From an uncultured Burkholderiales bacterium (GTDB lineage Bacteria; Pseudomonadota; Gammaproteobacteria; Burkholderiales; Burkholderiaceae_C), in assembly GCA_903828695.1 (NCBI GenBank), contig CAIKNE010000134.1:1-40112 (forward strand): 40,112 bases of DNA. Direction: 5' to 3'. Position 1 is the first letter of the stretch; each line of letters begins with the position of its first letter. This document shows positions 6,092-27,270 of the stretch, in pieces. The notes beneath the pieces were generated by a model. That model searched no databases. It worked only from the letters and a program-made list of their open reading frames with translations, and was not told the origin of the DNA. The position numbers and the translations under genes were made by a program.

Positions 6092-6194
6092 ATTTATTTA
6101 TAAGTTAGTAGCATAAACTATTAAGTATGCTTAAAACAAACAAAATAAAAATATAAATAAATAAATTTATGAAGAAAACAACTAATATTCAATA

Positions 6195-6224: not shown

Positions 6225-6248
6225 ATATTAACTATATGAGGGTATTTA

Positions 6249-8195: not shown

Positions 8196-8204
8196 GCAAG
8201 GTAC

Positions 8205-9746: not shown

Positions 9747-9750
9747 GATC

Positions 9751-12666
9751 ATGGACTACACCTTGTTCTGGGTAGATACTGATTTGACCATGATCACGGC
9801 CATATTCAATATGGTTGCAATGGTCTGCAACAACACAGACCTTATCTTCGGAGCAGCGCTTCTTGCGGGGGCATTTAAGATCTCTGTGCACAGCTTCTCT
9901 CACGGACATCTCAGATCCTCCCTCGCAGCAGCAACTATAGATTCAACCGTTGTACCTATGCTGATAGCGATTGCGCTTACAACCGGATCTCTTAAAACAA
10001 ACATCATAATTAAGAGTACCGTTTCAGGCAGCTTAAGCGCTGTCGCCAATGTACCAATGGCGCTAGCGATCGTCCCAACCGTCGCCAGTCAGGTTGGTCA
10101 AACCGTTGGCGCAGCAGTAGAGACAGCTTTGCAAGGGGTCAACACCAACTACTCATTGATAAGCGCAAGTGGTAAAGGCTTTTTAAACCCACTCAGAATA
10201 TTAGTTGCAACGCGCACGGCCGTAAGTGATTTAGGGCTTATTCCCTCTCAAATTAACGAAGTTGTAAGCACCTGTCTCAGCACAGAAAATAGCAATGTGG
10301 TGAGCTTGCAAACGGCACAGGCTATGGTCAAGGACGCAGGCAACACGCCTGGTACACCGCTTCAAACACTCCCCATCAATCAGGTCCCTGGCACGAGCAT
10401 TGGCGCCTTACTCTACATCGCATCAACGGGTTCTGGAACGCTTGAAGAAGTCGATGACATTACGGGCGGTGGTGCACCGATCCCTTTCACCATCGTTCCC
10501 TGTGCCCTAGCAGCAACCATGGTTGCCAACAATATTAGCTATGCACTCAATACAGAGAATTTTTCCAGGGTTGTACAAGGCGCAATCCAGGCCTCCGATA
10601 ACCCAGTTCAAAATCCCGGCGCAGCCAATCCCTATACGCTTGATGCCGTATCTGCTCAGTACGCAGCTATTCGCAACCCCAATGCGATGACTGCTGCAGT
10701 AGGCGGGCAAACTCAGGCTAATACAGAGATGATAAACCTACTGTTTTCCGAAATGGTGGAGCAACAACTAGACTGTTTAAATGTTACTGGTTCAAGTAAG
10801 ACAGCGTGTCAGTCGGACATCCTAACTCGATCTGAATTAGAGCGTAAAGCATTGAAGGACGCTGCAAATGCGAATATTGCGATGAAATATCTTGGTATTT
10901 TTAGCAATGATTTGCTCGCTGTATTAATTGGACTGGGACCAGTTTTGTTTATTCTCATGATGTTTATGGGTGAGAGTTTCGCAAAACCTTTAAACAGTTG
11001 GATACAAATGATGCTTTGGCCGATTTTGATGAGCCAAGTAGGTTCAGAACTTATTAACGGCATCATGTACTTTAAGGTGGCAACTTTTTTGAACAGTATG
11101 TCCCAAGGCGGCAGCATCTCCCAAGCGCTCGCCTATAACGCATACACTGAACTAGCGAACCAAATTTCAATGGCGAGCTCTTTGATGGGGGGGCTACCCC
11201 AGTTGATTGGGGTGATATTTGCGCTCGGTGGTTCAGCCGCCCTCAATAGCGTAGCCAACGAGATCAGGTCTGGCGCCAGTGATGTTGCCGACAGTCTTGC
11301 GCCGCCCCTTCAAAATACTGTCCCCCTAGTTAATCAGTCCTCCGTGGCGGTATCGACTCAAGGTGTAGGAAGTGCATCCACGACGATAAATGGTCAGGTT
11401 GATCCAGTAAACGCAGGTCTTAATTCAAGTGTGGCTAGTTCATTGAGCAATTCAATTTCTGAATCGCAAGCGAAATCCAGATCTAACACAGAGGATATGC
11501 GGTACACGAATGCAATTACTGCGGGTACCAGTCAGAGTGAAACCAACGGTATTAGGCTAAGCGAAGGACTACAAAAGTATTATGAAGAGAGTTTTAAAAA
11601 AGGCACTGGACAAAGTACGGATCAAACCTCAGTAACTACCAACTCAGCTAACCATCAAACCTCCAACGCTGCTAGTTTAAATGCGCGAGGATCCGCCAGT
11701 TTCGGAATAAGTATGCAAGGTGTAAGCGTCGGTGTAGGCTCGGGAATTGATGGACAAACAGGAGTAACAGAAACTGATTCTGCGGCGAGCGGACAAGAAA
11801 CTGCTAAAAGAAATGCAATTTCGGAAAATACCGATAGAGAAAATGCATTAAGGGAAACTAGGAACCACGCAAACGATCAAAGTTACTCCAACGACGATAG
11901 AAATTATCTAGACCGTGCCATTTCAGGTAATACAGCCGTAGGACAAACACTAACGAACGCCGATAGCAAAACAGATGCACAAGTTCAGGGTGAGGATGCA
12001 TCGCAAAGGATGTCCCTCTTTACCCAAGATGGCATCAAGATGCAACAACTTGCAACAGCCTACAACACCAACCCAGCGTTTAAGGCCTATGAAAATACCG
12101 AAGGAAACGCTTGGAGTGCTGCGCATGCAAAAGAAATTGGTGAACAAGAGGAAAGATATAACTCAGGTGCCGTTTCACAAATGAGTGGAAATAATATTCC
12201 TAAAGGATTGATCTTTAGGCATATGGCTGCTCAAGGGGTTGCAATGAATACTCATGCCTCGCCTGAAGAAAGAATGGCAGCTGGTGCATTTTTGGGTAGT
12301 TCAACCTCCATTCTGATGGGAGGGTCCAGCACACAGCTAATGAGTCCGCGTTTGAAGAACTTACAGATCCCAGACCCAAGCACCAACCCGTTGGGGAAGG
12401 ACACCCAGATGATGGCAACTGTTAATAAAAATGCAGGGACTGTCATTCACCCCCTTGTACCTATCGTATCTGCGAAATACCAAGGTGTACTGGGATATTC
12501 TATTTACGATACCAGCGCTGTTAGCACACCGACAGTTTCCGATACGCTTCATGTTGAACAAGATCAATCTAAGGCTGCTCATGAATCAGCCAGATTGAAC
12601 CTAGATGATAATGGAGCTTCAGCTAATATGCGACTTGCTAAAACAGTTGTGCGTAATAGGGATTAA
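9751..12666 (+). CDS. traG: Conjugal transfer mating-pair stabilisation protein TraG
   Basis: TraG is an inner-membrane protein whose N-terminal half works in pilus assembly and whose C-terminal half works in mating-pair stabilisation and entry exclusion. The 971-residue length is normal. Membrane segments lie near residues 25-80 and in a cluster at about 385-500 (LGIFSNDLLAVLIGLGPVL, then the MMFMGESFAKPLNSW region), which matches TraG_N. The rest (about 520-971) is soluble, low-complexity and rich in Ser, Asn, Gln and Thr, with KYYEESFKKGTGQS and other coiled stretches. It ends the plus-strand transfer operon. Confidence 0.9.
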   Translation: MDYTLFWVDTDLTMITAIFNMVAMVCNNTDLIFGAALLAGAFKISVHSFSHGHLRSSLAAATIDSTVVPMLIAIALTTGSLKTNIIIKSTVSGSLSAVANVPMALAIVPTVASQVGQTVGAAVETALQGVNTNYSLISASGKGFLNPLRILVATRTAVSDLGLIPSQINEVVSTCLSTENSNVVSLQTAQAMVKDAGNTPGTPLQTLPINQVPGTSIGALLYIASTGSGTLEEVDDITGGGAPIPFTIVPCALAATMVANNISYALNTENFSRVVQGAIQASDNPVQNPGAANPYTLDAVSAQYAAIRNPNAMTAAVGGQTQANTEMINLLFSEMVEQQLDCLNVTGSSKTACQSDILTRSELERKALKDAANANIAMKYLGIFSNDLLAVLIGLGPVLFILMMFMGESFAKPLNSWIQMMLWPILMSQVGSELINGIMYFKVATFLNSMSQGGSISQALAYNAYTELANQISMASSLMGGLPQLIGVIFALGGSAALNSVANEIRSGASDVADSLAPPLQNTVPLVNQSSVAVSTQGVGSASTTINGQVDPVNAGLNSSVASSLSNSISESQAKSRSNTEDMRYTNAITAGTSQSETNGIRLSEGLQKYYEESFKKGTGQSTDQTSVTTNSANHQTSNAASLNARGSASFGISMQGVSVGVGSGIDGQTGVTETDSAASGQETAKRNAISENTDRENALRETRNHANDQSYSNDDRNYLDRAISGNTAVGQTLTNADSKTDAQVQGEDASQRMSLFTQDGIKMQQLATAYNTNPAFKAYENTEGNAWSAAHAKEIGEQEERYNSGAVSQMSGNNIPKGLIFRHMAAQGVAMNTHASPEERMAAGAFLGSSTSILMGGSSTQLMSPRLKNLQIPDPSTNPLGKDTQMMATVNKNAGTVIHPLVPIVSAKYQGVLGYSIYDTSAVSTPTVSDTLHVEQDQSKAAHESARLNLDDNGASANMRLAKTVVRNRD

Positions 12667-12746
12667 TGTGTTGGAAAGTAATAGCCTTAATATTAATTCA
12701 AATCCTGCTGACCCTAGCAATTCAGACTTTTGAAATGTTGCTATTC

Positions 12747-14573
12747 CTAAATGTTTGCCTTGATGACCTTAATAAAGCACTCTGCATATCTTTCTAACTT
12801 GGATTGACCTACACCTGTAATATTCTCAAACTCATCTAAGCTTGTAGGCGCAGTATGAAGGATCTCCTGCAAAGTGCTGTCGTGGAAAATGATATAGGGC
12901 GGGACTCCTTGCTCAGTCGCTAATTGCCTGCGCATATCTTTAAGTGCATTCCAAAGCCTTTCCTCATCAGGATCGGTAAATGTGGGGATCGATTTTTTGG
13001 TTGAAGAAGACCTAAGGGCTTTCTGAGTTAATTGCCCAATGTCCCTTCGAAGCCAAACTTCCTCCTCATGCTTTAGCACTGGGCGAGATTTCTCGGTTAA
13101 CTGCAGACCACCATACGCCTTGATATCTGCGTCCAAATAGCCGCCCGCTACCAATTGGCGGTAGATACTACTCCACTGGTTTAGACTAAGATCAGCACCG
13201 ACCCCGAAAGTTTTAAGTAAATTATGGCCAAATTTAGAAACTCTAGGAGTGACTTTGCCCAACAAAACATCAATCAAATGGGCAACTCCAAATAACTGTC
13301 CGGTCCTGTAAACACATGAAAGTGCCTTTTGGGCTTCTACCGTTGCGTTCCATGTCTCAACCGGGTCTAAGCAGTTATCGCAGTTCCCGCAGTTACCTGG
13401 GTGATTTTCTCCAAAATACCGAAGGATTGTTTGGTGTCTGCAACCCGTAGATTCACAAAATCCAAGCAAAGCGTTAAGCTTTTGAAGCTCAACGCGTTTA
13501 CGCTCTTCGGGTGCATCTCCTGAGTTAACCATCTGCCGTAAGTTAACCACATCGCCTAGACTATATGCCATCCATGCATCTGCTGGTAATCCGTCTCGAC
13601 CTGCTCGTCCCGTCTCTTGGTAATAACCTTCCATGCTTTTGGGTAAATCTAGGTGAGCTACAAACCTGACGTTAGGCTTGTCAATTCCCATTCCAAAAGC
13701 CACGGTCGCAACCATAATCACACCTTCTTCTCGAAGAAAGCGTTGTTGATTTTTATTGCGAATCTCAGCAGTTAGTCCCGCATGATAGGGCAGGGCGTCC
13801 CAACCCCGGTCTTTTAACCACTCAGCAGTAGTCTCCACGCTCTTGCGAGAAAGGCAATAAACGATACCAGCATCATTTGGATGTTCTGTAGTTAAGAATT
13901 CTTCTAGCTGATTTTTAGCGCTATCCTTATGCAAGACCCTGTACTTGATATTAACTCTGTCAAAACTTGATATAAACTCTTTAGCTGACTCAAGCGAGAG
14001 GCGTTCAATAATTTCAAGTTTTGTTGCTGCATCCGCAGTCGCAGTCAAAGCTATTCGCGGGACGTTTGGATAACGATTGTGCAACTCAGTTAATTGTCGG
14101 TATTCTGGGCGAAAATCATGTCCCCACTGAGAGACGCAATGAGCCTCATCGATTGCAAATAGTGCAATTTTGGAGTCAGCGTAAAGCTTGTCCAGTATGC
14201 CTAAAAATCCTGGACTCAGCAAACGCTCGGGAGCCATATACATTAGATCCAGTCTCCCCCTTAGAAGCTGTTGGATGGTTGCATGGGCTTGGCCAGCGTC
14301 CATACTCGAATTCAAGAACGCGGCATTGACACCTAATTGGGTTAGGGTATCGACCTGGTCCTGCATTAATGCAATAAGAGGGGACACTACTATACCCACG
14401 CCCTCTCTGACAAGCGAGGGTATTTGGTAGCACAAGGACTTTCCTGCACCTGTTGGCATGAGCACTAAAGCGTCGCCTCCTGCTACTACTTCACTAACTA
14501 TGGACTCCTGTATGCCTCGAAATTCACTAAACCCAAATATATCCTTGAGGATTTGCTTGCTTGACTGCACCAA
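12747..14573 (-). CDS. recQ: ATP-dependent DNA helicase RecQ
   Basis: RecQ unwinds DNA 3' to 5' in recombination and fork repair. The 608-residue protein is full length. Visible are the Walker A MPTGAGKS (residues 39-46), the DEAH box at 142-145 with the following [10 protein letters not shown] aromatic-rich loop, motif [11 protein letters not shown], the four-cysteine zinc site (CESTGC then NCGNCDNC), a winged-helix RQC region, and a C-terminal HRDC domain (about residues 525-600). It runs opposite to traG with an 80-bp gap that shows no clear terminator. It is probably a chromosomal gene. Confidence 0.97.
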
Positions 14574-15016
14574 TTAAATTCCCTTTTTTAAACTAATCAG
14601 ATTGTGCCCTTGAATCTTAATTAAAGTAACTGTATTTAGGTGTAAGTGGTCAGTTATGAATAAATTTTTACATTAGCGGTAAATTGGAATACCCTAATGT
14701 AATACTATTATGATGAAAAATATGAAATTGTCTAAGCGAGGATATTCAAACAGTTGCCGTATCTCACTTGACAATTCGCCATTTAAGAACTAACTAATTC
14801 AAAGAATGGCATTCCAGCCGCAAAATACTTGATAACTAAACTTGTAGCCACAAAAGACAAATAGCTAATGGATCATAAGAGTTGGAAAGAAGATATTCCA
14901 AATCGTTATTTGTCCAGTATGTTGTGCAGCAGACATAATAATTCTGTTGTCTGTTTTATGATGATTGATGAATTTATGGTCAAGCATATTAGCTCTACTT
15001 CAAACTTTTAACTTCG
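14574..15016. other. Intergenic region between recQ and small membrane genes
   Basis: These 443 bp hold one clear structure: TTACATTAG at 14668-14676 and CTAATGTAA at 14694-14702 form a 9-bp inverted repeat. An inner GGTA/TACC extends it to about 13 bp with one bulged base. It lies about 95 bp before recQ and could be an operator or an mRNA hairpin. A 47-codon frame from ATG 14868 lacks a ribosome-binding site and family features, so I do not call it a gene. The rest is AT-rich and unremarkable. Confidence 0.5.
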
Positions 15017-15256
15017 ATGAAAAAAAATCCTAACACCCAGGTGAGATTTAGATTATTCAAATATATATGCTGGTTAGGCTATGGGTTAGCTTTTTTGGGA
15101 TGTTTAGGGGTATTGCTGGGTGTCTTGCATATTTTTGATATGCAGATCTTCTCAATAGGATTGTCTTCTGGTATTCGAATCATAGGATCCGTTGGAGTAT
15201 CAGGATGTTTACTCAGTGCGGTTGGTCACGCCGCAATCGAACGGCATCTTATTTAA
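15017..15256 (+). CDS. Small two-helix membrane protein
   Basis: The 79-residue product has a basic N-terminus, a first membrane segment at about residues 17-39 and a second, glycine-rich one at about 46-68, then a short tail. No family is recognised. It heads a set of three tiny genes on the same strand (79, 63 and 46 residues), spaced 23 bp and then overlapping by 11 bp, which suggests one transcript. The set runs toward the retinal/carotenoid cluster and ends at a hairpin shared with its far end. Confidence 0.55.
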   Translation: MKKNPNTQVRFRLFKYICWLGYGLAFLGCLGVLLGVLHIFDMQIFSIGLSSGIRIIGSVGVSGCLLSAVGHAAIERHLI

Positions 15257-15279
15257 AAAAATTTAAAAGGTAATTCAAA

Positions 15280-15471
15280 GTGTTTAAACGATCAGATTAT
15301 TTTATTTTGTTAGCTGTGATTCTGTCTTTTGTCATTTCAGCATATCTTTGGTTCGTCGATAAAGACCAATTACAAGCCATATACACCGCGATTTGGATTC
15401 CGTCCATTTTTGCATTCGCTATTTATTTCAAATTATGCGCCCTAATGAGTATAAGAAAAAATGCAACATAA
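15280..15471 (+). CDS. Small two-helix membrane protein
   Basis: The 63-residue product has two membrane segments (about residues 7-26 and 34-55) joined by a short polar loop WFVDKDQLQA, and a basic end. The start is GTG at 15280, preceded by AAAAGG at 15265-15270. Its last 11 bp overlap the next tiny gene. I recognise no family; the role is unknown. Confidence 0.55.
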   Translation: MFKRSDYFILLAVILSFVISAYLWFVDKDQLQAIYTAIWIPSIFAFAIYFKLCALMSIRKNAT

Positions 15472-15601
15472 CATACTCATGCCAGCCATTGCCATTTTCA
15501 TTCTTATGATTTTAGGTCTTATCTATACAGTCTTTGAATTTACCTCCATCGGTGAGGATTCAGTTCTGGCTGAGAAAGCAAACGCACAACTGCTAAAGTA
15601 A
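15461..15601 (+). CDS. Tiny single-pass membrane protein (46 aa)
   Basis: An ATG at 15461 opens a 46-residue frame ending at 15601. It has one strong membrane helix (MPAIAIFILMILGLIYTVF, residues 7-25) and an acidic, then alanine-rich tail (FTSIGEDSVLAEKANAQLLK). It overlaps the preceding gene by 11 bp, the kind of coupling that supports a real gene. It has the shape of a small subunit of a membrane complex. There is no family match that I can name. Confidence 0.5.
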   Translation: MQHNILMPAIAIFILMILGLIYTVFEFTSIGEDSVLAEKANAQLLK

Positions 15602-15623
15602 CAAATCATCCAAAATTTCACTT

Positions 15624-15680
15624 GTCTGTAAACGGTTCTATTAGATCCCGTCATTGATGCATTTACAGACTTTTTGGTCA
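15624..15680 (+). terminator. Candidate terminator after small membrane genes
   Basis: GTCTGTAAA (15624-15632) pairs perfectly with TTTACAGAC (15662-15670) and is followed by TTTTTGG. The loop is long (29 bases). It would end the plus-strand trio before the convergent blh gene. On the minus strand no T-run follows. Confidence 0.5.
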
Positions 15681-15691
15681 TGGGTCTGTAT

Positions 15692-16552
15692 CTAAGCAGA
15701 ATACCTAACCTGGTCTATCAGTAGCATATGAGGCAGGGTGAGTGCTGCAAGTCCAACAAACACCAATTGCATGGTGTATGAGTATTCAGACTCAGTGGGA
15801 ATCCATCGCAAGTACATCCAAACCACTGCCCCGACTGTAGCCATTGGCCAAGCGGCCGTTGCAAGCATTTTCGTCCAAGAAACTGATAAGAATCTGTGTG
15901 TTCGAAGGATGTGTCTAAGACTGTGCATCAGGCAAAAATAGGTTGTAAATGTAATCAACGGGTCTGCGCAGACGGCCATCAATGTTAATGCTAATATCTC
16001 TAAGGCCTGTACTTTGTCACGTTTAAACTGGCTATAAATAGTAACAGTCAGGAGCAATGCCCAAGGGATTGCAAGGACATGCAGAGTACTCGTGACCATC
16101 TCTGCGCTTGCAGGTTCCAGAATAGTTGAGAATAAATGAATCATTTTGAGTCGATGCAATAAGTTGGGTAAAACAATCACTGCCCCCCCATACAGAACTT
16201 TAATGATCAGTGGAGTGCTTAGTGTTAAATCTCTAGAGAAATGAAGTGCTGACATCGTCAAAAAACAAAACATAAAGAATAAGGGCCAAAGTAACCACAG
16301 ATCGATTATGAATAACACAAGCGCGGTGTACAAGAGAACAAACTTAAACCATCCTTTCTTGTCCCTAATCCGTAATAGCTTGATTGCAAACAAGGGATCG
16401 AGTGCCCCGTGTGGTACACCCAGCATAAAAACCATTAATGCCAGAATAATGAGTTGCCTTATTGAGCTACCTTGCGTTACAAAAAAGGATACTCCACTCA
16501 CGACAAGCGCAACTGTGCCAAAAACTACTCCCTGAACCCTGATTCCATTCAT
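15692..16552 (-). CDS. blh: Brp/Blh-family beta-carotene 15,15'-dioxygenase
   Basis: This membrane enzyme cleaves beta-carotene into two retinal molecules, the chromophore of the rhodopsin encoded in the same cluster. The 286-residue product is strongly hydrophobic with about eight membrane helices and has the family signature MLGVPHGALDP (H48), followed by the conserved ALHFSRD and LMHSLRHILRTH histidines that bind iron. Length and order are normal. It overlaps crtY by 4 bp and is the last gene of the operon, so retinal formation is tied to carotenoid synthesis. Confidence 0.92.
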   Translation of the reverse strand: MNGIRVQGVVFGTVALVVSGVSFFVTQGSSIRQLIILALMVFMLGVPHGALDPLFAIKLLRIRDKKGWFKFVLLYTALVLFIIDLWLLWPLFFMFCFLTMSALHFSRDLTLSTPLIIKVLYGGAVIVLPNLLHRLKMIHLFSTILEPASAEMVTSTLHVLAIPWALLLTVTIYSQFKRDKVQALEILALTLMAVCADPLITFTTYFCLMHSLRHILRTHRFLSVSWTKMLATAAWPMATVGAVVWMYLRWIPTESEYSYTMQLVFVGLAALTLPHMLLIDQVRYSA

Positions 16553-17763
16553 CGGTGCAGCACTAATTTGTAAAGTCCTTTTAAAAATAAACGCTTCGGC
16601 AATGCGAGCACTACCGCAGCGTAATCCATCATGCTACCCTGATCTGTCAGGAAACGAATGAGTCTATCCGTTTTAACATTCGAAAATAACGCGACGAATA
16701 GACTGGGCCCTAACTTTGGATTGTTTTTAATTACATTTAAGAACAAGGAGTCCATTTTTCTAACTATGAAGGAGTCCTCTAACTGAGGTGCTGGGTGAGC
16801 GTTGTTGACGATGGTGAATGCGCATTCGATAGCCCATTTTTGAATTCGCTGAAACGCATACCCCGTAGCGGATCTCGCAGCACCAGCGCTAACGCCCGCA
16901 TACACATAGGTCAGGGTATTCGTTGAATTGAATTTTGACCGACTAAGTGCGTCTTGATTCATTCCCATAGGTATTGATCCAGATTCAGTTCTCTTTATTT
17001 GATAGGTCTGACCTTGAGTTATATTTTGGATTTTTTCCTCTAGATGCGTTAAAAGTTCTTGCGCTGAATAAGGCAGAGCTCCAAAAGTTGTAAATTCAAT
17101 TAGAGCGATATGTTTTGTGATAGGTAGCACATACGTAAATCCAACATACTCCGAGTTCGGATCACAAAAGTCCATTAATGTGGCTCGATGAGGATCAAAC
17201 AGCGGCACTTCACATTCAACTTCATAACCCAAAAAGGATTGCCAAAGCGTTGCAATTTCCAAAGCATTTATAGTGCTATTTTCCATCGGCTCACCAATGG
17301 CGTAAGCTACACTTGTTAAACTAGGTCGCGTATCTACGACTAATTTGCTCGCAATAATGCCCTGATTTGTTGTCAAAAGCCACAAACCGTTTTTATATTC
17401 AGCTTCTTTTATAAGACGGATGCCTAGTCTGAGCTCTATTCGAGGGTTTGATGCGATCTTATGTTGAGTGTATTCGTAGAAAATGTCTCCTGCTAGTAAT
17501 TGGTAGGGTCTACCAGTACAAATCAGCACAGTCTCCCTATCTTCACTCACAACGAGCAGCTCTTTCCAATGATGCATACATAGAGTTGAGAACGGATTAT
17601 GAGTATCCTCCCAAAAACACCAAGTTCGATCGTTTGTGTACTTTAGTCGAGGCTCTATTAGTAGTGTTTTGGGTATATTTCCCTCCAATATCGCCAGTTG
17701 ATAGCCTAAGCTAAGTCCTGAGCAACCCCCGCCAATAATCACTAGGTCATACTGACTACGCAT
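16549..17763 (-). CDS. crtY: Lycopene beta-cyclase (CrtY type)
   Basis: CrtY closes both ends of lycopene to give beta-carotene. The 404-residue flavoprotein starts with a dinucleotide-binding motif (LVIIGGGCSGLSLG, residues 8-21), then the family's RTWCFWEDTHNPF stretch near residue 47, a DFCDPNSEYVGFTYVLP segment and a C-terminal GAARSATGYAFQRIQ motif. The substrate comes from CrtB and CrtI upstream and the product goes to Blh downstream. It overlaps crtB by 8 bp and blh by 4 bp. Confidence 0.93.
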   Translation of the reverse strand: MRSQYDLVIIGGGCSGLSLGYQLAILEGNIPKTLLIEPRLKYTNDRTWCFWEDTHNPFSTLCMHHWKELLVVSEDRETVLICTGRPYQLLAGDIFYEYTQHKIASNPRIELRLGIRLIKEAEYKNGLWLLTTNQGIIASKLVVDTRPSLTSVAYAIGEPMENSTINALEIATLWQSFLGYEVECEVPLFDPHRATLMDFCDPNSEYVGFTYVLPITKHIALIEFTTFGALPYSAQELLTHLEEKIQNITQGQTYQIKRTESGSIPMGMNQDALSRSKFNSTNTLTYVYAGVSAGAARSATGYAFQRIQKWAIECAFTIVNNAHPAPQLEDSFIVRKMDSLFLNVIKNNPKLGPSLFVALFSNVKTDRLIRFLTDQGSMMDYAAVVLALPKRLFLKGLYKLVLHR

Positions 17764-18718
17764 CGTTGGAGCTCTCTACTAGACTTAAAGTAGACTGTAC
17801 ATTAACCGGAGACACGAAGGGATGGTTGATATTGGGTGAGCTTTGGGGAGTGATCCAAAACCTAATACAAAAAACGGCCGAGACCAACGCAGCGATAGTC
17901 ATGATGTACTTTTCGGGTTTTGAGACAACAATTCGCTTATGCCAGTATTCAAAACTTTGTCGTGCCAATTTAACTCCGATCTGTCGGTATATACGCGCGG
18001 CAATCAAAACTGCAAATCTAGATCTGATTGGTAAGTAAGCTAGACCTAACTCACCGCGTCGATAGTGCTCACTGGCAAGCGCTAATACATACTCAACTGC
18101 CCGTTTGATAATGATTTGATCATTTTCATTAGGTCTAATGAGTTCGGACGGTTTAAGTGGACCGATTAAGTTTGCAGGGATGTATATTCTGTTCATTAGC
18201 GCGTCGGCTTTGATATCTCTGCAAATATTGGTCAACTGCATCGCTATCCCTAAATTCAAAGCATAATTCTTTGAATCCGGATTGTGAGAGTCCAGTACAT
18301 CACACATCATCAATCCAACCGTTCCTGCAACACGGTAGCAGTAACGCAGCAACTCGTCTTGATTCAACAATCTGACTAAGTCATTGTCGGAATCGACCCC
18401 ACGAATCAACTCAGATAGATCGTCTTTATTGATGTTGCATTCTTTTATTAACGACAATCCGTCCTGAATGACCAAATCCCTTGGTGCCGATGATGACAAA
18501 CTTTGTCTTACCGCGAGTATTCCTATCCTAGAAATTTTTGGTGAATCACACTCATCCACCATATCATCTAAGTGCCTACAAAGTCGGTACAAGCGTGCAA
18601 CGCGCTGTGTATAGTGTTTCCCTAAGAAGAAGCTTGCCCAGTAAAAACTAGCACCTTTCGTCTCTAATATAGCAATCGGAGATTTTGAGGGTGCAGTTAC
18701 TAAGGAGGTTAAGTCCAT
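17756..18718 (-). CDS. crtB: Phytoene synthase CrtB
   Basis: CrtB condenses two geranylgeranyl diphosphates into phytoene. The 320-residue product has the two aspartate-rich metal sites: DDMVDE (D51-D55) and NICRDIKAD (D168 and D172), plus the YCYRVAGTVGLMMCDVL block. An unusual C-terminal hydrophobic stretch (about residues 271-289) followed by a 30-residue polar tail extends past the normal end of CrtB and could anchor it to the membrane. Its ATG shares one base with the crtI stop, and it overlaps crtY by 8 bp. Confidence 0.93.
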   Translation of the reverse strand: MDLTSLVTAPSKSPIAILETKGASFYWASFFLGKHYTQRVARLYRLCRHLDDMVDECDSPKISRIGILAVRQSLSSSAPRDLVIQDGLSLIKECNINKDDLSELIRGVDSDNDLVRLLNQDELLRYCYRVAGTVGLMMCDVLDSHNPDSKNYALNLGIAMQLTNICRDIKADALMNRIYIPANLIGPLKPSELIRPNENDQIIIKRAVEYVLALASEHYRRGELGLAYLPIRSRFAVLIAARIYRQIGVKLARQSFEYWHKRIVVSKPEKYIMTIAALVSAVFCIRFWITPQSSPNINHPFVSPVNVQSTLSLVESSNDA

Positions 18719-20196
18719 TAAATCTTCTCATTAAGGCTGGGCAACAAAGAGGCTACCAATTTTGCGGAGCTCAGTACTCCAGGCAATCCGGCGCCGGGGT
18801 GAGTTCCAGCACCAACTAGGTACAAGTTTTTGAGTGAATTTGATCTGTTGTGAAAACGAAACCAAGCAGATTGCGTAAAGGTAGGAGAAACTGAGAAGCC
18901 TGCTCCGTGCTCGCTCAAGTAATCGAGCTCAAAATCTTTCGGGGTTTTATAGAAATCATCTGTAATGGTCGACAAGAGATCGGGCAGAATCGTTTTATCA
19001 AGTGCAGCAATAATACGGCTGCGCAGTTTGGGGCCCTCTACGTCCCAATCCTGGCCGCCAAGTAAATTAGGGACGGGGCATAGAGCATAAAAACTATCGC
19101 ATCCACTTGGCGCAAAGCTCTGATCGGTCGCAGTCGGTCTGTGTAGATAAAGTGAAAAGTCCTCACTCAATACTTTCTTCGTGAAAATATCATCCAGTAA
19201 TTCTCGGTAGTGTTTACCCAGCCAAATGGTGTGATGAGCTACCCCAGGATAAGGTTTAAGAGTGCCAAAATAAAGCACAAAGAGTCCCATAGAAACTTTG
19301 GGTTTATTTACCTTAAAGCGGTCTAACAGAGACTGATAATGCGACTTTACCAACTTACGGTATAAATGAAGGGGATCCGCATTTGAGATGACTAAATCGA
19401 ATGCAATGCTTTCACCGTTTTCTAGTACAGCTGCAATAGCCCGACCCGAATGTACGGTTAATGACTCAATAGTTTCGTTGCGTCTAATTTTTATTCCACT
19501 TCGAATCATCAGTTTTTCTAATGCCGATACAAGTTTGTGCATTCCGCCCATGACAAAGTGGACTCCGTGCTCACGTTCAAGGAAATGAATTAAACTGTAA
19601 ATGCTTGTCGTTTGAAAGGGGTTACCGCCCAAGAGGAGAGGTTGAATAGAGAAAACCTGTAACAGTTTTTCGTTCTTCAAATATCTATTTGCCAATTCCC
19701 ACACTGTCAAATAACTCTTTAATCCTAATAGTCTCGGTATTTGCTTGACCATGTCAAAGACCTTGTCAAAGGACTGCGTAGCTAACTTTGTAAATGCTAG
19801 ATCGAAAATTCTCTTCGAGTGCTTAAGTAGTTGAATGTAACCCAAGCAATCTGAGGGCTCTATACGTTTAATCTCTTCAAGAGTTTGTGCAAGTGTTCCC
19901 CCGTAATCAAAATGCTCGCCATCAGCAAACTCAAATCGGTACCAAGGAGTAAGTGGCACGAGTTGTACATAATCCGATAGTTTCTCATCAAATAACTGAA
20001 ATAGTTCTTCGAATATAAAAGGAGCGGTAATAACTGTTGGTCCGCTGTCATGGCGAAATCCGCCGCGCTCGAAAACCTGCGCTCTGCCGCCGAGCTGAGT
20101 ACATCGATCAACGATAGTTACTTCGTATCCCTTTGCACGCAGCCGTAGCGCGGTGGCTATACCTCCAAGACCCGCACCGATCACTAATGCGTGCAT
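18718..20196 (-). CDS. crtI: Phytoene desaturase CrtI
   Basis: CrtI takes phytoene to lycopene through successive desaturations using FAD. The 492-residue product opens with an FAD-binding motif (VIGAGLGGIATALRL), then RAQVFERGGFRHDSGPTVIT, and ends with the bacterial-type signature LVGAGTHPGAGLPGVLSSAKLVA near residue 465. The length is normal. It lies 111 bp downstream of the rhodopsin gene and just before crtB. An AAAAGG ribosome-binding site precedes the ATG by about 7 bases. Confidence 0.95.
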   Translation of the reverse strand: MHALVIGAGLGGIATALRLRAKGYEVTIVDRCTQLGGRAQVFERGGFRHDSGPTVITAPFIFEELFQLFDEKLSDYVQLVPLTPWYRFEFADGEHFDYGGTLAQTLEEIKRIEPSDCLGYIQLLKHSKRIFDLAFTKLATQSFDKVFDMVKQIPRLLGLKSYLTVWELANRYLKNEKLLQVFSIQPLLLGGNPFQTTSIYSLIHFLEREHGVHFVMGGMHKLVSALEKLMIRSGIKIRRNETIESLTVHSGRAIAAVLENGESIAFDLVISNADPLHLYRKLVKSHYQSLLDRFKVNKPKVSMGLFVLYFGTLKPYPGVAHHTIWLGKHYRELLDDIFTKKVLSEDFSLYLHRPTATDQSFAPSGCDSFYALCPVPNLLGGQDWDVEGPKLRSRIIAALDKTILPDLLSTITDDFYKTPKDFELDYLSEHGAGFSVSPTFTQSAWFRFHNRSNSLKNLYLVGAGTHPGAGLPGVLSSAKLVASLLPSLNEKI

Positions 20197-20307
20197 ACAG
20201 AGAGACCTTTTGTGAATTATTTTTGATTGATCTTTGAGAATCAGAAATTAATTTTGCATTTGCAAATACAACTCCTTGCAATGACAGGGAATGGTCTTTA
20301 ATGACAG

Positions 20308-21108
20308 CTAAGTTTTGTGCAAACTCTCAGACTCCTTGACCGCAACGCCCCATATGATGAGTCCAAAAGCAATCTTATTCAGTACATCAGCTAAGTTATA
20401 GATGATATTGAGACTATTCGCACTGTTTGCCACGTCTTGCCCGGTCAAGTAACCAAAATAATAGCCCAATGGATAGATGGCCCACCCGAAGGTAACAATG
20501 AGTCTCATGACCTTGAATGCGGATTGAACAGAGTGCGGTGCATTTTGAGCGTTAATCTTACTGGCTTCCCCCAAAAAGATTTCATAAAGTATATATGCCC
20601 AACCCACCATTCCGAGTACGAAGGCAGACATCGCTTGCATGTACTTAGCCTCACCCAGGTATCCTCCGATTAGCATAATCAAAGTTCCGATAATTAGACG
20701 CCAAAAAACGCCCACCGGGACTTTGGCGATAGCTGATAAGATTAAATAAAATTCAATCATTAAAAGCGGTACTGTAATGAACCAATCGATGTATCTAAAT
20801 ACCGTGGGTGTAGAACCTGTTGTAACCCATACATCGCGCATATAAAAATAGTGCACGGCAGCGACCAGAGTAACAAGGCCTGAAACTGTTAATGATGTTC
20901 TCCATTTAGCTACAACGCGGTCTCTTTCCAGAAAGAAGAAAGCAGTGGAGGCGACCAAGGCCATGGAGATGATCCAAAATGATATACCTACAAAGTCATC
21001 TTGCTTTAGAAGCGATGAGGACGCGTACGCACTGGGACTGGTGATTGCAAGTATCCCTATAAGGGATAGAAATGTTGCCGTTTTTTGCCATGATTTTTTT
21101 ATATTCAC
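20308..21108 (-). CDS. Proteorhodopsin, green-tuned light-driven proton pump
   Basis: This seven-helix retinal protein pumps protons out of the cell in light. The 266-residue product has a signal-like leader (residues 1-29) and H86 in helix B (the PR H75 position). In helix C, YIDWFITVPLLMIEF carries D108, T112 and E119, the DTE set of proton pumps (PR D97, T101, E108). Helix G NLADVLNKIAFG has D241 and K245, which binds retinal. L116, at the colour-tuning position (PR 105), indicates green absorption. The start is GTG at 21106-21108 with AGGGA upstream. It heads the operon with crtIBY and blh. Confidence 0.96.
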   Translation of the reverse strand: MNIKKSWQKTATFLSLIGILAITSPSAYASSSLLKQDDFVGISFWIISMALVASTAFFFLERDRVVAKWRTSLTVSGLVTLVAAVHYFYMRDVWVTTGSTPTVFRYIDWFITVPLLMIEFYLILSAIAKVPVGVFWRLIIGTLIMLIGGYLGEAKYMQAMSAFVLGMVGWAYILYEIFLGEASKINAQNAPHSVQSAFKVMRLIVTFGWAIYPLGYYFGYLTGQDVANSANSLNIIYNLADVLNKIAFGLIIWGVAVKESESLHKT

Positions 21109-21486
21109 AATAATCCCTATTTAAAATTTCGTGTTTTGAGTTACAAAACACTCCAGCTCGGATTATTGAATATTCAGTTGATGATGTTTTGTTCGCTAGC
21201 ATACTTAAGGTGCTAGGAATTCACTTCAAGAACATTTAATTTAATTGTTAGCCACTTTTTATAGTTTTTTAAGAAGTCCTTAGATGCCTTTGTTAGCTAC
21301 AGAACAGTTGAAATAATTTCTAAATGCTAACTTCTAGATGCAAGAGTCATGCAGACCGCAGATGATGCGAGAGGTATGACAGTTTTCTATTTTTAAGATA
21401 ATGAGATTGATCCCCAAATCATCATTACACCATTTCTAAATTAGCTTTGAATTGAATGCTAATCAACCACAAAATAAGCACATCTG
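21109..21486. promoter_or_regulatory. Divergent intergenic region upstream of rhodopsin
   Basis: The 378 bp between the rhodopsin gene and the DUF3330 gene must carry promoters for both. A perfect 8-bp inverted repeat, GTGTTTTG (21131-21138) and CAAAACAC (21144-21151) with a 5-base spacer, lies 22 bp before the rhodopsin start, either as an operator or as a leader hairpin. A weak TTGAAG-17-AAGTAT pair can be read on the minus strand near 21200-21230. No coding frame is convincing. Confidence 0.45.
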
Positions 21487-21672
21487 ATGACCCATCAAAA
21501 CGTCCCCATTGAAGTTAGTATGGTGCCCTGTCGCATTTGTTTGACAGAGGTACCTATATCAGAAGTCATAGTCTCAGAGGCTACGGACTACGTTGCGCAT
21601 TTTTGTGGTCTGGAGTGTTATCAGAAATGGAAAAACAATCCAAATAGTCCCGTGGCACAAGAAAGCCTCTGA
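21487..21672 (+). CDS. DUF3330 small zinc-finger-like protein
   Basis: The 61-residue product has a CRIC pair (residues 15-18) and a second pair in HFCGLECYQKW, separated by the conserved SEATDYVAH stretch. This matches DUF3330, a small protein with a probable four-cysteine zinc site, known near mercury-resistance transposons and in many Burkholderiales genomes. Its biochemical role is not known. It lies between the rhodopsin and cupin genes, transcribed away from rhodopsin and toward the cupin gene. Confidence 0.75.
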   Translation: MTHQNVPIEVSMVPCRICLTEVPISEVIVSEATDYVAHFCGLECYQKWKNNPNSPVAQESL

Positions 21673-21700: not shown

Positions 21701-22354
21701 TCAGTTAAACAGATGCCCTGTCTTAACAAATATAGTACAACCCTCTTTGCTAAAAGGTTGATGCATACTCAGATGAGGACTTCTGATCCACGAACCCGCA
21801 GGGTAGCGACCATGCTCGTCTTCAAAAACTCCGTCAACGACAAAGATTTCTTCACCCCCATAGTGCCGGTGAGCATTGAAATAGGTTTCCGGGGCCCATT
21901 TGACAAGTGTTGATCCTGTGCCTTGGCGCATGAGGGGCATTACCTTTAGTCCAGGCACCAATCCTTGATGCCAAGCAGCTGAGTTCGTATCCAAGACTTC
22001 TCGGGTGACTTGATCAGGGCCTAAGTGCATTAATTTTACAAAAAGGGTACACCCAGATTTACTAAAGGGTGCATGTGATGAACCTGGAGGATTCATCAAA
22101 TAAGTACCAGCAGGGTAATTGCCCGTTTCATCACTGAACACACCGTCCAAAACGAATATCTCCTCTCCTAGGTCATGCGTATGCGAATGAAACTGAGAGT
22201 TCGGCATATAACGAACGATGGAGGTTGCCTTCGCTATCTCACCGCCTAAGCGCTCAAGCATTCGCCTCTCAACTCCTGGTTCCGGGCTCGCAATCCATGG
22301 TAAGTCATGATGGCTAATCGAGACCCTTTTACTGTAATCTGCATTAATAATCAT
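21701..22354 (-). CDS. Double-cupin ChrR-type protein
   Basis: The 217-residue protein contains two ChrR-type cupin domains. The first (about residues 40-110) shows FHSHTHDLGEEIFVLDG and YPAGTYLMNPPGSSH. The second (about 145-215) shows FNAHRHYGGEEIFVVDG and YPAGSWIRSPHLSMH. The His/Glu pattern would bind a metal. ChrR is the zinc anti-sigma factor of the singlet-oxygen response in Rhodobacter, but the N-terminal anti-sigma domain is absent here, so this is a stand-alone cupin, perhaps an enzyme or peroxide-responsive protein. It is divergent from the MpaB gene. Confidence 0.82.
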   Translation of the reverse strand: MIINADYSKRVSISHHDLPWIASPEPGVERRMLERLGGEIAKATSIVRYMPNSQFHSHTHDLGEEIFVLDGVFSDETGNYPAGTYLMNPPGSSHAPFSKSGCTLFVKLMHLGPDQVTREVLDTNSAAWHQGLVPGLKVMPLMRQGTGSTLVKWAPETYFNAHRHYGGEEIFVVDGVFEDEHGRYPAGSWIRSPHLSMHQPFSKEGCTIFVKTGHLFN

Positions 22355-22390
22355 GAGTTGGGGTGTTTATATATAGCTTGAAACAAAAAG

Positions 22391-22435
22391 TGCGGAATAA
22401 TTTAAAATTAGCTGAGCTATTTTAGATTATTCGCA
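22391..22435. promoter_or_regulatory. Large palindrome in divergent cupin/MpaB gap
   Basis: GAATAATTTAAAATTAGCT at 22395-22413 is followed after one or two bases by AGCTATTTTAGATTATTC, its near-perfect reverse complement, and the flanks TGCG/CGCA continue the symmetry. The whole element spans about 45 bp, differing by one mismatch and two single-base bulges. It lies midway between the two divergent start codons, as expected for a shared operator. Confidence 0.55.
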
Positions 22436-22494
22436 ACTCTATCTAATCTTGATGTTAAATACACCCATCATCGCAGGTTCTAATCTTTTGCATC

Positions 22495-23373
22495 ATGATT
22501 GACTCTATTCGTAATTCTCTCAGGACAATTATCTTAGAGATGGTCGGTGGCGGCTCTGGCTCACCTGTTGCTTTTCTAACACCCAAAGGCGATCCTGGCT
22601 TATTTGGTCCAAAATCTATCGCATGGCGCGTTCATGCAGATTTCATTTCCATGATGATAGGGGGTATAGGATCCTTGTGCCTGCAAGCCTTGCACCCACA
22701 GGCATTGGCTGGGGTTTGGGATCACTCCACCTTCAGGCAAGACTTAAAGGGCAGGTTGGGTCGAACCGCCTTCTTTATAGCCGCAACGACTTATGGCCCA
22801 AAAGAGATGGCTTTAAAAATCATCGAAAAAGTCAACAAAATTCACAGCACTGTTAAAGGTACCGATGAAATGGGGAGCCCGTACTGCGCTTCAGATCCCC
22901 AATTATTAAAATGGGTTCATTTGACAGAGACCTATAGCTTTTTAAAAGCATATCAAAAGTACTGTAGTCCTTCCCTAACCCCAGCAGAGGTGGATCAGTA
23001 CTTTAAGGAGATGAGAGTCTTGGGCGAAATGATGGGTGCAACGGATATTCCCGCAACCCTTTATGATACAGAGCAAGCGATCTTGAGTTTCAACGATGAA
23101 CTTAGATACGGCGAAAGAGCTAAAACTATCATTGACCTACTGGCTCATTTCCCCTCATCCCTGCAAGTCAAGCCCTTCACATTGCTCATTACGCGCGCAG
23201 GATTTGCAAACCTACCCGAATGGGCCCTAGATCTCATACAAAAACCAATACCCAGTCCATTAGAAAAAATTCTTCTCTCAACGAGCGTTAATTTAGTGGC
23301 CATTCCTATCCGTGAGGCGTTGAAAAACGGGGTAGCAGCTCACTCCTACAAAAGAGTCTATGGATTGAATTGA
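22495..23373 (+). CDS. MpaB/DUF2236-family oxygenase
   Basis: The 292-residue product belongs to the DUF2236/MpaB family, heme-b proteins related to rubber oxygenase Lcp and fungal MpaB'. Seen in the sequence are SIAWRVHADFISMM, LQALHPQALAGVWDHSTF with the conserved histidines, GRTAFFIAATTYG, and a WVHLTETYSF block. The reaction is unknown; related enzymes cleave isoprenoid double bonds, which is suggestive beside a carotenoid cluster. It is divergent from the cupin gene and 119 bp upstream of the photolyase gene, same strand. Confidence 0.82.
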   Translation: MIDSIRNSLRTIILEMVGGGSGSPVAFLTPKGDPGLFGPKSIAWRVHADFISMMIGGIGSLCLQALHPQALAGVWDHSTFRQDLKGRLGRTAFFIAATTYGPKEMALKIIEKVNKIHSTVKGTDEMGSPYCASDPQLLKWVHLTETYSFLKAYQKYCSPSLTPAEVDQYFKEMRVLGEMMGATDIPATLYDTEQAILSFNDELRYGERAKTIIDLLAHFPSSLQVKPFTLLITRAGFANLPEWALDLIQKPIPSPLEKILLSTSVNLVAIPIREALKNGVAAHSYKRVYGLN

Positions 23374-23492
23374 ACAATAATGAAAACCCTGATCATTCAA
23401 AATTCAAGAAAATCCTGCCAACCTTGTTGCACCGCAAAATCTAACGCCTGTGTTCGTATTCGTTTCTAATTATTGATGCGCTGTAACTTACG

Positions 23493-25058
23493 ATGTTTTA
23501 TTCAGTTGTCTGGTTTAAGCGTGATTTAAGAGTTCATGACAATGAGGCTCTTTTTAAAGCCTTGGATCAGGGGCCTGTACTTTGTCTTTATATTCTTGAG
23601 CCCTCATACTGGAGGGGCTTAGATACTTCAAAAAGACAATTTGAATTCCTGAGAGAGTCTCTCTTAGATTTGGCTAGAGATTTGAAATCTATACATTTAA
23701 ATCTTACTGTCATGACAGGTGAGGCCATTGAGGTATTTTCAAAAATCTATGAGTCTTTGCCATTTCGCGGTGTCTACTCCAATCAAGAGACTGGGAACTT
23801 TCTTACGTATAGGCGGGATGTCCAACTACAAAAATGGCTACAGGCTCAGTCCGTAATATGGGATGAGTCTCTTCAGCACGGCGTTCTGCGAGGCTTGCAA
23901 TCTCGAAAAAGCTGGAGTGCACATTGGGATCTTGTGATGATGGCACCCCAGTTCATCACCAAAAATCAAATCGTTGACTACGAATTACAAACTAATTTAC
24001 ATTTACGCTTTCCCAGTGAGCGCTGGCCTAAAAATGATGAGTGGTTAACAAACAATGAGCCATGTCCTGAAAGACAATTAGGCGGAAGAGCTCAGGCTCT
24101 TGAGATCCTCTCTTCTTTTTTAAAGAAGCGCAGCGGCACCTATGTGGGCGGAATTTCCTCACCCCTAAAAGCAACCTCCGCATGTTCAAGGCTCTCCCCC
24201 TATCTGAGCCTTGGTTGCCTGAGCATGCGTGAGGTTGTACAAGCTACAAATGCAATGATTCAAAGCGGTGCAACCCGTCCTTACCAAAGTAGGGGATTGC
24301 ATAACTTTCTAAGTAGACTTCATTGGCATTGCCACTTCATCCAAAAATTAGAGAGTGAGCCTGAGATTGAATGGCGCAACATGAACGAGGGCTTTACCGG
24401 TCTTCGAGAAGAGGAGTGGTCATCGCAGTGGTTTGAACGCTTGATTGCAGCTAAAACAGGTTGGCCCTTGGTTGATGCTTGCGTCACGATGCTCAGGCAA
24501 ACGGGGTGGCTCAACTTTAGAATGCGCGCTATGTTGATGTCGGTCGCGGCCTATCCACTTTGGCTTCACTGGAAGCCAGTTGGGGACTGGTTAGCCACGC
24601 AATTTGTAGACTATGAGCCCGGTATACACTGGAGTCAAGTGCAAATGCAGTCGGGTACGACAGGTATTAACACTACTAGGGTGTACAACCCTATCAAACA
24701 AGCAATGGATCATGATCCACAGGGTGAGTTCGTACGCCACTGGTTGCCAGTCATGCAACGTGTCCCCGATGCTTGGATTTTCGAGCCCTGGAAAATGCCT
24801 GCTGATGTTCAGGAAAGTTGCGGGGTCATTGTTGGTAAAGACTGGCCCTTACCTATAGTTGATTTAGCACAGGCTACGCAAGAGGCTAAAAAACGAATGC
24901 ATGAACGCAGAGGAGTCCAATCCGTTAAAGAGATAAATGCCAAAGTACTTGATCGACACGGATCTAAAGCAAATATGAGATCAGGGAGTAGAAAAAAACG
25001 TGATGCGTTAAAGATGAACTTAAAGCAAGACGATCATCAACTTACTTTTAATTTTTAG
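23493..25058 (+). CDS. Photolyase/cryptochrome-family flavoprotein
   Basis: This 521-residue cryptochrome/photolyase family member either repairs UV pyrimidine dimers with light or senses blue light. The N-terminal antenna domain opens SVVWFKRDLRVHDNEAL. The FAD domain contains RLSPYLSLGCLSMREV, NFLSRLHWHCHF, TGWPLVDACVTMLRQTGW and the FVDYEPGIHWSQVQMQSGTTG region. Unlike classical class I photolyases (GxQWxAGxGxDA.PYFR), this last region reads MQSGTTGINTTRVYNP, typical of a distinct cryptochrome-like subgroup seen in many aquatic bacteria. The lysine- and arginine-rich tail (residues 465-510) may touch DNA. Confidence 0.9.
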   Translation: MFYSVVWFKRDLRVHDNEALFKALDQGPVLCLYILEPSYWRGLDTSKRQFEFLRESLLDLARDLKSIHLNLTVMTGEAIEVFSKIYESLPFRGVYSNQETGNFLTYRRDVQLQKWLQAQSVIWDESLQHGVLRGLQSRKSWSAHWDLVMMAPQFITKNQIVDYELQTNLHLRFPSERWPKNDEWLTNNEPCPERQLGGRAQALEILSSFLKKRSGTYVGGISSPLKATSACSRLSPYLSLGCLSMREVVQATNAMIQSGATRPYQSRGLHNFLSRLHWHCHFIQKLESEPEIEWRNMNEGFTGLREEEWSSQWFERLIAAKTGWPLVDACVTMLRQTGWLNFRMRAMLMSVAAYPLWLHWKPVGDWLATQFVDYEPGIHWSQVQMQSGTTGINTTRVYNPIKQAMDHDPQGEFVRHWLPVMQRVPDAWIFEPWKMPADVQESCGVIVGKDWPLPIVDLAQATQEAKKRMHERRGVQSVKEINAKVLDRHGSKANMRSGSRKKRDALKMNLKQDDHQLTFNF

Positions 25059-25216
25059 GGTATCCGGATTTTGATGTTGGTAAAGGCCTAAAGACGACTA
25101 GATTCGATCAACGCCATAAGTGTTGGTATGTGCGCTCCGAACTTGATTTCAGCACCATCGGTTCGATGTTGGTGCTCTTCTTCAAAGACAGCTTTACCAA
25201 CGTGACCTGGCGGCAC

Positions 25217-26050
25217 TCAGTAGAAGCCCATGGCATCTTTTGGAACCCAATAACCCATATCACCAGCACCGCACCTACGTTCAAACTTGGGTCGTAGTCG
25301 CGTTAGCTTGCGCGAACCTTCGGTGAACAGTATCTTCGCTCGCTGTGCTTCAAAGCTATAGCCACGACCAATTCCATTCATCACCCGAATCAGGCTGTTC
25401 AAGCTCTGTGTGTAGGCGTTTGTCACCGGATGCTAGAAGTAGTTGATGATCCACGGCTGCCAGTTAGACCAAGCACGTATCAGATCGGCAAAGGCACCTC
25501 TGACTTGCGGCACCACCGCCCGATTCCAAGCCTCGAATGCCTTCAATGCTTTCTGAGGTGAACTTGCGTTCTCGTAGATGACAGAGAAGTCTTCTTTGAG
25601 CCGTAAGCCACGCCCAAGTCGGGGTAATTTTTGAGTCCAACCATCCAGCAACACGCGCTCACGGTCATTCAAATCACGCTCGCGCTTCAAAAGCACAAAT
25701 CGGTCGTGCATGAGGCCTCGGCATTGCTTAGTCGTCAACTGTTCACGCAAGCCCTTTCTGACTCGCTCTAAGGCATCGTTGGCCATTCTGACGACATGGA
25801 CTTGTCGATCACAATTTTGGCCTTGGGTATCACGGCTTGAACAGCGTGACGATAAGGTGCCCACATGTCCATGGCTTGAAATATTCCGGATCACTTGTTC
25901 GTTGCGGCCATGACCAATTAAATGCTCAGAGCTGCAGGCCATACAGACCGTGGGCGCATTCTCGATTTCAGCGGTGATGTGGTAATCGTGGTCATTTTCT
26001 TCGACCCGTAATATTTTGTAGTCGGGGAGATTCAGGATGTTTACTGGCAT
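25217..26050 (-). pseudogene. Decayed ISL3-family transposase
   Basis: The frame from 26050 begins with the ISL3 zinc-finger N-terminus (MPVNILNLPDYKILRVEEND, then CMACSSEHLIGHGRNEQVIR). It then jumps over roughly 150 codons of the middle of the protein into a segment that in the next frame reads MDMWAPYRHAVQAVIP and VIDK. A missing T near 25800 restores the frame at HVVRMANDALERV. A TAG at 25433-25435 interrupts the ending just before HPVTNAYTQSLNSLIRVMN. Large deletion, frameshift and stop together show a dead copy. No terminal repeats or target duplication were found by eye. Confidence 0.88.
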
Positions 26051-26076
26051 TCAGACTAAGGCTTATTCGTAGCTCT

Positions 26077-26862: not shown

Positions 26863-26885
26863 ATTTTTCCTTGTACCGATAAAGT

Positions 26886-26952
26886 AATCCGGTTTTATTG
26901 TATTGAGACAATCAATCTATTGCAACAACAAAATCCGGTTTTACGATAAAAC
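26886..26952 (-). promoter_or_regulatory. Promoter and repeated operator of the fic gene
   Basis: On the minus strand, TTGCAA (26920-26925) and TACAAT (26897-26902) are 17 bp apart, a near-consensus sigma-70 promoter 35 bp before the fic start. A 12-bp direct repeat, AATCCGGTTTTA on the plus strand, brackets it at 26886-26897 and 26932-26943. The distal copy runs into a perfect palindrome GTTTTA-CGA-TAAAAC (26938-26952). This layout fits repression by a protein bound on both sides of the promoter. Confidence 0.6.
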
Positions 26953-27270
26953 TACAGCAGACTAAATATTACCCGCAAACACATTCAAATCTGGATACCC
27001 AATTTTTAAAATACTCATCAATAGTTAGGTATTTGAATATTGTACGAGCCCACTAATCACCGCATCAAAACAACTCAGCTGACATATGTCCAAGACCTCT
27101 AAAGAAATGCTTCTGAAGGAGAGTAACTGTTTGCTAAGGGCAAGACAAACAAGACTCCATGCGTATTACATTAATCTCCTAGGCTGAATTGTGCCTTTAG
27201 ACGCAACTCTAGTGAATCAAAACAGTAAACAATTAAAATCGAGGCTGATTAACAAGTCATAGGATCCAAA
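26953..27270. other. Intergenic region before DUF4149 gene
   Basis: I see no gene, strong hairpin or recognisable repeat in these 318 bp beyond the fic promoter. A GGATCC-containing stretch without a good ribosome-binding site precedes the DUF4149 start. Confidence 0.4.

Follow-up and report, generated by a model that had tools for sequence, protein, structure and literature searches.

A crtE-less proteorhodopsin cassette with retinal genes, inserted beside recQ in an uncultured Burkholderiales bacterium

The stretch of DNA analysed here (the window) is a contig of 40,112 nucleotides from an uncultured Burkholderiales bacterium of the Burkholderiaceae_C (CAIKNE010000134.1). It carries a gene cassette of five intact open reading frames (ORFs) on the minus strand, in the transcription order rhodopsin, crtI, crtB, crtY, and blh. 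They appear to provide a proteorhodopsin and a retinal pathway complete apart from crtE, the gene for geranylgeranyl diphosphate (GGPP) synthase. With about even confidence, we read the locus as a functional proteorhodopsin cassette for green light that belongs to a crtE-less lineage and would receive its GGPP from the housekeeping prenyl synthases of the host. It is an ordinary proteorhodopsin with a retinal cassette of a known kind, and the missing crtE is a modest variation. ORF starts were picked mechanically, and the genes are as follows.

20308..21108, minus strand: rhodopsin, a putative green-type proton-pumping proteorhodopsin of 266 amino acids (PF01036, PDB 8cqc, likeness to the rhodopsin of G027)
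18718..20196, minus strand: crtI, phytoene desaturase, 492 amino acids (TIGR02734, 543 bits, cut-off 238)
17756..18718, minus strand: crtB, phytoene synthase, 320 amino acids (PF00494, 196 bits; alignment to CrtM)
16549..17763, minus strand: crtY, lycopene beta-cyclase, 404 amino acids (PF05834, 152 bits, cut-off 23)
15692..16552, minus strand: blh, beta-carotene 15,15'-dioxygenase, 286 amino acids (TIGR03753, 154 bits, cut-off 95)

The source bin (G000) comprises 3.02 Mb in 161 contigs and is 97.95% complete. G labels denote sampled genomes and L labels rhodopsin or Blh loci; G075 is a sister species, and L006 is the cassette of G027. The genus sample held 61 genomes, and the order-level sample, scored for Blh above cut-off, held 399. 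Additionally, named genomes were scanned with the opsins of the window and of G027, and the best 80 of 564 related loci were kept, some of which share one genome (L089 and L099; L116 and L132). Several metagenome bins are titled Bordetella parapertussis or Klebsiella pneumoniae (L073, L074, L101, and L082); their cassettes resemble those of freshwater betaproteobacteria, and the names look like mislabels and were given no weight. Judging from the names of related records, the habitat of the host is probably fresh water.

Three of the four gene junctions overlap, by 1 base (crtI/crtB), 8 bases (crtB/crtY), and 4 bases (crtY/blh), and 111 bases separate rhodopsin from crtI, which bears out the one-strand, overlapping five-gene operon of the first-pass annotation. 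Matches above the Pfam cut-offs were obtained for Bac_rhodopsin (147 bits, cut-off 24.6), SQS_PSY (196 bits), and Lycopene_cycl (152 bits). NCBIfam models placed CrtI (crtI_fam, 543 bits) and Blh (Brp/Blh, 154 bits) above cut-off; CrtB and CrtY exceeded Pfam cut-offs only and were below all NCBIfam cut-offs. In Blh, the residues H48, D52, H104, and H210 were invariant in all 51 rows of more than 220 residues, among them that of the window.

Among solved structures, the opsin was most similar to green proteorhodopsin (8cqc, E 3e-84). In this alignment the opsin keeps the counterparts of D97, T101, E108, the green-type L105 (in what we take to be the proteorhodopsin numbering), and the Schiff-base lysine, as the first-pass annotation had stated. 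The D-T-E set and the green-type leucine are usual traits; a lake survey reports them in almost all of its type-1 rhodopsins (PMC9878933). From these residues, outward light-driven proton pumping and green absorption are predicted. The opsin is 86% identical to that of G027, with residues 34-131 unchanged.

The window contains no PF00348 polyprenyl synthase, and the cassette thus lacks a GGPP synthase, in its flanking DNA as well, in agreement with the first-pass annotation. A search of the whole bin for the PF00348 family returned only two genes and no third synthase. The first, immediately upstream of a coaE-like frame, is read as IspB; the second, beside dxs and an xseB-like frame, is read as IspA. 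The distant crtE that had been suggested as a precursor source is therefore not present in the assembled bin as far as this family is concerned; unbinned DNA could hold one.

The rhodopsin-crtI junction was visible in 56 of the best 80 loci, and no crtI was seen in the remaining 24. A synthase gene occupies this junction in 52 of the 56, including L121, where the synthase overlaps a long crtI frame; it is absent in L087, L088, L101, and L107. The gene crtE normally sits between rhodopsin and crtI. The long crtI frames of L087, L101, and L107 look like crtI-crtB fusions. In the genome of L087, a third synthase lies close to weak crtI-like pieces, but there is no Photo_RC, the reaction-centre family used here as a marker of a photosynthesis gene cluster.

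At order level, Blh was found above cut-off in 14 of the 399 genomes, that of the window included. The other 13 have either two synthases (G054, G306, G245, G421, and G336) or three (eight genomes). The contigs of G054 and G306 end at crtI, so their rhodopsin-crtI junction is unseen. The clusters of G245, G421, and G336 (95, 80, and 94% complete) consist of crtI-crtB-crtY-blh with a rhodopsin gene divergent from the crt genes and no synthase, and each of these genomes has two synthases and no Photo_RC. The crtE-less state without photosynthesis recurs in them. Among the literature matches listed, no title or abstract dealt with crtE-less proteorhodopsin cassettes of this group, which is not evidence of absence.

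A tree of concatenated CrtI, CrtB, CrtY, and Blh sequences was built from 32 rows, hand-selected out of a 57-row FastTree. The window and G027 group together (support 100) and are joined by L088 and G054 with a support of 98.8 in the Shimodaira-Hasegawa-like approximate likelihood ratio test, and 0.971 in the 57-row tree. The clade of the window is nested among crtE-bearing cassettes, the nearest being that of Polynucleobacter aenigmaticus (L085; support 90). L087, L107, and L101 constitute a second crtE-less group, and the cluster of G245, G421, and G336 a third, distant one. At least two changes of crtE state are needed in the 32-row tree when G054 is scored as crtE-less, as was done although its contig ends at crtI. 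In the rhodopsin tree, the window and G027 also group together, with low support at deeper nodes. The tree suggests that crtE was probably lost, from between rhodopsin and crtI, in an ancestor of a mobile cassette lineage.

The closest relative, the G027 cassette, has the same gene order without crtE and the same two small ORFs beside blh, and differs from the window in its genomic neighbours and in having a photosynthesis cluster with its own crtE. L088 (Betaproteobacteria bin.365) has the next nearest crt genes and likewise no crtE between rhodopsin and crtI; unlike the window, it lies in a genome with Photo_RC and a third synthase. The partial cluster of G054 is also among the next nearest in the tree; its contig stops without reaching a rhodopsin gene, and the search for rhodopsin in this genome yielded none. 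Its crtB and crtY are fused into one frame of 695 amino acids (L170, 10362-12449). A more distant parallel is the freshwater strain AAP5, which we take to be Sphingomonas glacialis. It also has rhodopsin and retinal genes with crt genes that are not all beside rhodopsin; it is reported to differ in having a xanthorhodopsin with an adjacent cleavage gene, other crt genes elsewhere, and photosynthesis genes (PMC7762795). Compared with the rhodopsin-crtEIBY-blh cassette of Vibrio campbellii (PMC3380642) and the xanthorhodopsin-crtEIBY-brp cassette of Tardiphaga (PMC7701988), the window has the same genes except for crtE, and two extra small ORFs next to blh.

The cassette is an insertion of about 7 kb between recQ and a DUF3330 gene followed by a ChrR-like cupin gene. 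The flanks and the remaining parts of the insertion are listed below.

12747..14573, minus strand: recQ, left neighbour, also next to the cupin gene in cassette-free G075 and G019
14595..21486, no strand assigned: DNA absent from the sister G075 (blastn of the window against G075:C158)
15017..15256, plus strand: sm1, a small ORF of membrane type that runs convergently to blh and is placed and oriented alike in G027
15280..15471, plus strand: sm2, likewise a small ORF of membrane type, at the corresponding position in G027 with 89% identity
21701..25058: right neighbours, namely ChrR-like cupin (minus strand), MPAB_Lcp (plus strand), and photolyase/cryptochrome (plus strand), assigned by Pfam/NCBIfam; the matching DNA is adjacent in G075 and split up in G019 and G027

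Contig C158 of G075 matches positions 12721-14594 and 21708-25057 of the window at 89-90% DNA identity, with 127 bases between the two matches. The DUF3330 gene (21487-21672) is also missing at this site, so G075 either never had the cassette or lost it together with DUF3330. In G019, recQ and the cupin gene are about 1 kb apart with no cassette between them. Rhodopsin was found in G000 and G027 only among the 37 genus genomes searched for it; a weak match in G032 was dropped because, by our reading, it belongs to a ZIP-type metal transporter. Similarly, cassette DNA was confined to G000 and G027 among all 61 genus genomes, save for a 90-base crtI match in the photosynthesis island of G075. 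The cassette of G027 lies between RND-efflux-type and TPR genes, as read from the frames, and its cupin gene is flanked by a DUF3330 relative. A G+C content of 41.1% between 14600 and 21700, against 44.7% for the window, gives mild support to the insertion.

Neither sm1 nor sm2 matched a Pfam family above cut-off. In the genus sample, which was searched for sm1, this ORF occurred in 2 of 61 genomes, both of them cassette carriers. Among 88 other rhodopsin/Blh loci, a relative of sm2 (E <0.01) was seen once outside G027, at L120, 8 kb from the rhodopsin gene. Both ORFs may travel with the cassette.

The first-pass annotation had placed the cassette directly between a conjugation locus and insertion sequence (IS) relics and had taken this as a hint of horizontal gain. 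The placement is wrong: recQ intervenes on one side and DUF3330, cupin, MPAB_Lcp, and photolyase on the other, and the ISL3 remnant begins about 4.3 kb from the rhodopsin gene. Mobility itself is supported by the joined site in G075, the other neighbourhood in G027, and the crt tree across families; conjugation genes and IS elements as its agents are not. The tra genes are probably older neighbours because the border between tra and recQ seems to recur in cassette-free G075, where the final 37 bases of the tra block (12631-12667) are found identically at a contig end. The ISL3/Fic piece is a second, separate insertion. No link was found between the cassette and either the conjugation genes or the remnant of the IS, element ends not having been sought systematically. 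Transfer of the cassette is suggested because hosts of different families share the crt clade of the window. Transfer of whole proteorhodopsin clusters (PMC2889829) and whole-operon transfer of rhodopsin-crtEIBY-blh type cassettes (PMC3380642, PMC7701988) have been reported earlier. Regarding possible carriers, no CrtB relative was found in one viral sequence scan. Among 72,556 plasmid records, 4 carried Blh relatives, with identities of 25-29%, and none had a match to sm1.

As for the neighbouring DNA itself, positions 1129-12666 hold conjugation-type genes (TraU, DsbC-like, signal peptidase, TraF, TraH, and TraG) in two divergent blocks beside recQ, with no relaxase in the eight frames of this region that were scanned. 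An ISL3 transposase remnant and a Fic-like gene, both absent from G075, lie at 25058-27000.

The reading that we favour, GGPP supply by housekeeping synthases, would work as follows. An ancestral cassette would have dropped the crtE that stood between rhodopsin and crtI, and the cassette with its two small convergent ORFs would later be inserted between recQ and DUF3330/cupin. CrtB, CrtI, CrtY, and Blh would convert host GGPP via phytoene, lycopene, and beta-carotene to retinal for an opsin that would pump protons outward. The GGPP would most likely be a trickle from IspB, which would form GGPP as an intermediate of its long-chain product, or from IspA. Such a trickle may be enough because one retinal is needed per opsin, and a housekeeping leak is plausible because G245, G421, and G336 have complete clusters with two synthases and no Photo_RC.

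Three points weigh against this supply. No change favouring GGPP was seen in the IspA sequence; to our knowledge, IspA and IspB of E. coli give no visible carotenoid without added crtE; and a contig of the bin breaks off some 2.6 kb before the point at which the photosynthesis genes begin in the sister, so a crtE may be unbinned. Regarding the first point, IspA is 97.8% identical to that of cassette-free G075, and none of the 7 differing positions lies in the Asp-rich motifs. The residues ahead of the first Asp-rich motif, which we take to determine product length, are Tyr-Ser in 14 of 15 IspA rows (the 15th stops before that column), and Ala-Ser in the two CrtE sequences compared. A broadened IspA, offered in the first-pass annotation as another precursor source, is thereby unsupported as a sequence-visible change.

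The main rival explanation is that the species is a dual phototroph and that crtE of a bacteriochlorophyll photosynthesis cluster, located outside the bin, feeds GGPP to the cassette. We regard this as possible and rather unlikely. Photo_RC occurs in 41 of the 61 genus genomes, and the four IspB most similar to ours among the loci of 29 relatives (G075, G019, G027, and G012) all belong to genomes with Photo_RC; set against this, 12 of 27 good-quality genus genomes lack it. Cassette and photosynthesis do coexist elsewhere: G027 has the cassette as well as puf genes and crtE that share one contig, the genome of L088 combines Photo_RC with a third, photosynthesis-type synthase, and that of L076 has Photo_RC together with the cassette genes rhodopsin, crtY, and blh (blh cut by the contig end). 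Contig C104 of G000 stops about ten bases past phaB, and in G075 hemC, the first gene of the photosynthesis island, follows 2.6 kb further on. However, a contig end this close to any chosen point is expected in about one in four cases by estimate (161 contigs, 3.0 Mb). The intervening 2.6 kb of G075, occupied by a small frame and a disrupted glycosyltransferase-like gene, have no match in G000. Moreover, the nearly complete bin contains neither Photo_RC nor a third synthase, and the crtE-to-bch stretch of G075 has no DNA match in it. The right flank of the photosynthesis site, on the ispH side, did not turn up within the initial ≤20 kb of 60 of the 161 contigs. On the hemC side, the island of G075 has other neighbours than the islands of G012 and G027. 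Also against this rival, the genome of L114 has Photo_RC and yet keeps crtE in the cassette, and some of the Tardiphaga strains with the XR-crtEIBY-brp operon are reported to have photosynthesis genes (PMC7701988). The association of the crtE-less cassette with Photo_RC amounted to 3/11 versus 1/25 (Fisher p 0.08, kinship ignored), or 3/13 versus 1/25 (p 0.11) with G054 and G306 counted as crtE-less, and a photosynthesis cluster as the general answer to crtE loss was rejected on account of this weak association. A broader version, to which we assign a still lower though not negligible probability, is that a transferable crtE-less lineage spread among bacteriochlorophyll phototrophs, with photosynthesis crtE feeding retinal synthesis and the cassette trimmed to rhodopsin-crtY-blh in one host. 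The species of the window would then be a dual phototroph or would have kept rhodopsin after photosynthesis loss, an order with precedent because strains that lost photosynthesis and kept rhodopsin are reported for Tardiphaga (PMC7701988). Two side observations concern these genomes. At L076 (Comamonadaceae Jr-14may18-246), the cassette consists of rhodopsin-crtY-blh only, as if the photosynthesis cluster gave the earlier carotenoid steps, the search for crt genes in this genome having been confined to the locus. The islands G075:C56, G027:C87, and G012:C49 hold extra hemA, hemB, hemC, hemE, hemF-like, and dxs genes next to crtE.

That the cassette is not self-sufficient, with retinal or a carotenoid taken up or the pathway idle and decaying, seems improbable to us. 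No dedicated GGPP source was found in the bin, and other reduced cassettes are known (rhodopsin-blh at L075 and the three-gene form of L076). Against decay stand the five intact genes with overlapping or close ends, the core residues kept in CrtB, Blh, and the opsin, and the conservation of the opsin relative to G027. It is very improbable that CrtB uses farnesyl diphosphate to make a C30 carotenoid, so that GGPP would not be needed. The absence of crtE would fit, and the best NCBIfam score of CrtB is with the presqualene synthase HpnD (157.9 bits, far below the cut-off of 278.6). However, CrtB aligns a small S and A with F26 and W38 of the C30 synthase CrtM of S. aureus, positions that we assume to determine the C30 product, and a C30 switch is thus unsupported. 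Outside the crtE-less set, 2 of 47 CrtB rows share the S/A pair; F or W at these positions is seen in none of the 57 rows. Furthermore, as far as we know, a C30 chain cleaved at its centre would give no retinal.

If the spread among bacteriochlorophyll phototrophs were true, two light systems would share one pathway. If instead the favoured reading of supply by housekeeping synthases is right, crtE is dispensable in rhodopsin cassettes and has been lost more than once. It raises the question whether the GGPP normally available from IspA and IspB is enough for one retinal per opsin, or whether a photosynthetic host is required. The host could then take over the GGPP step, and how such cassettes spread may depend on the isoprenoid metabolism of the host.

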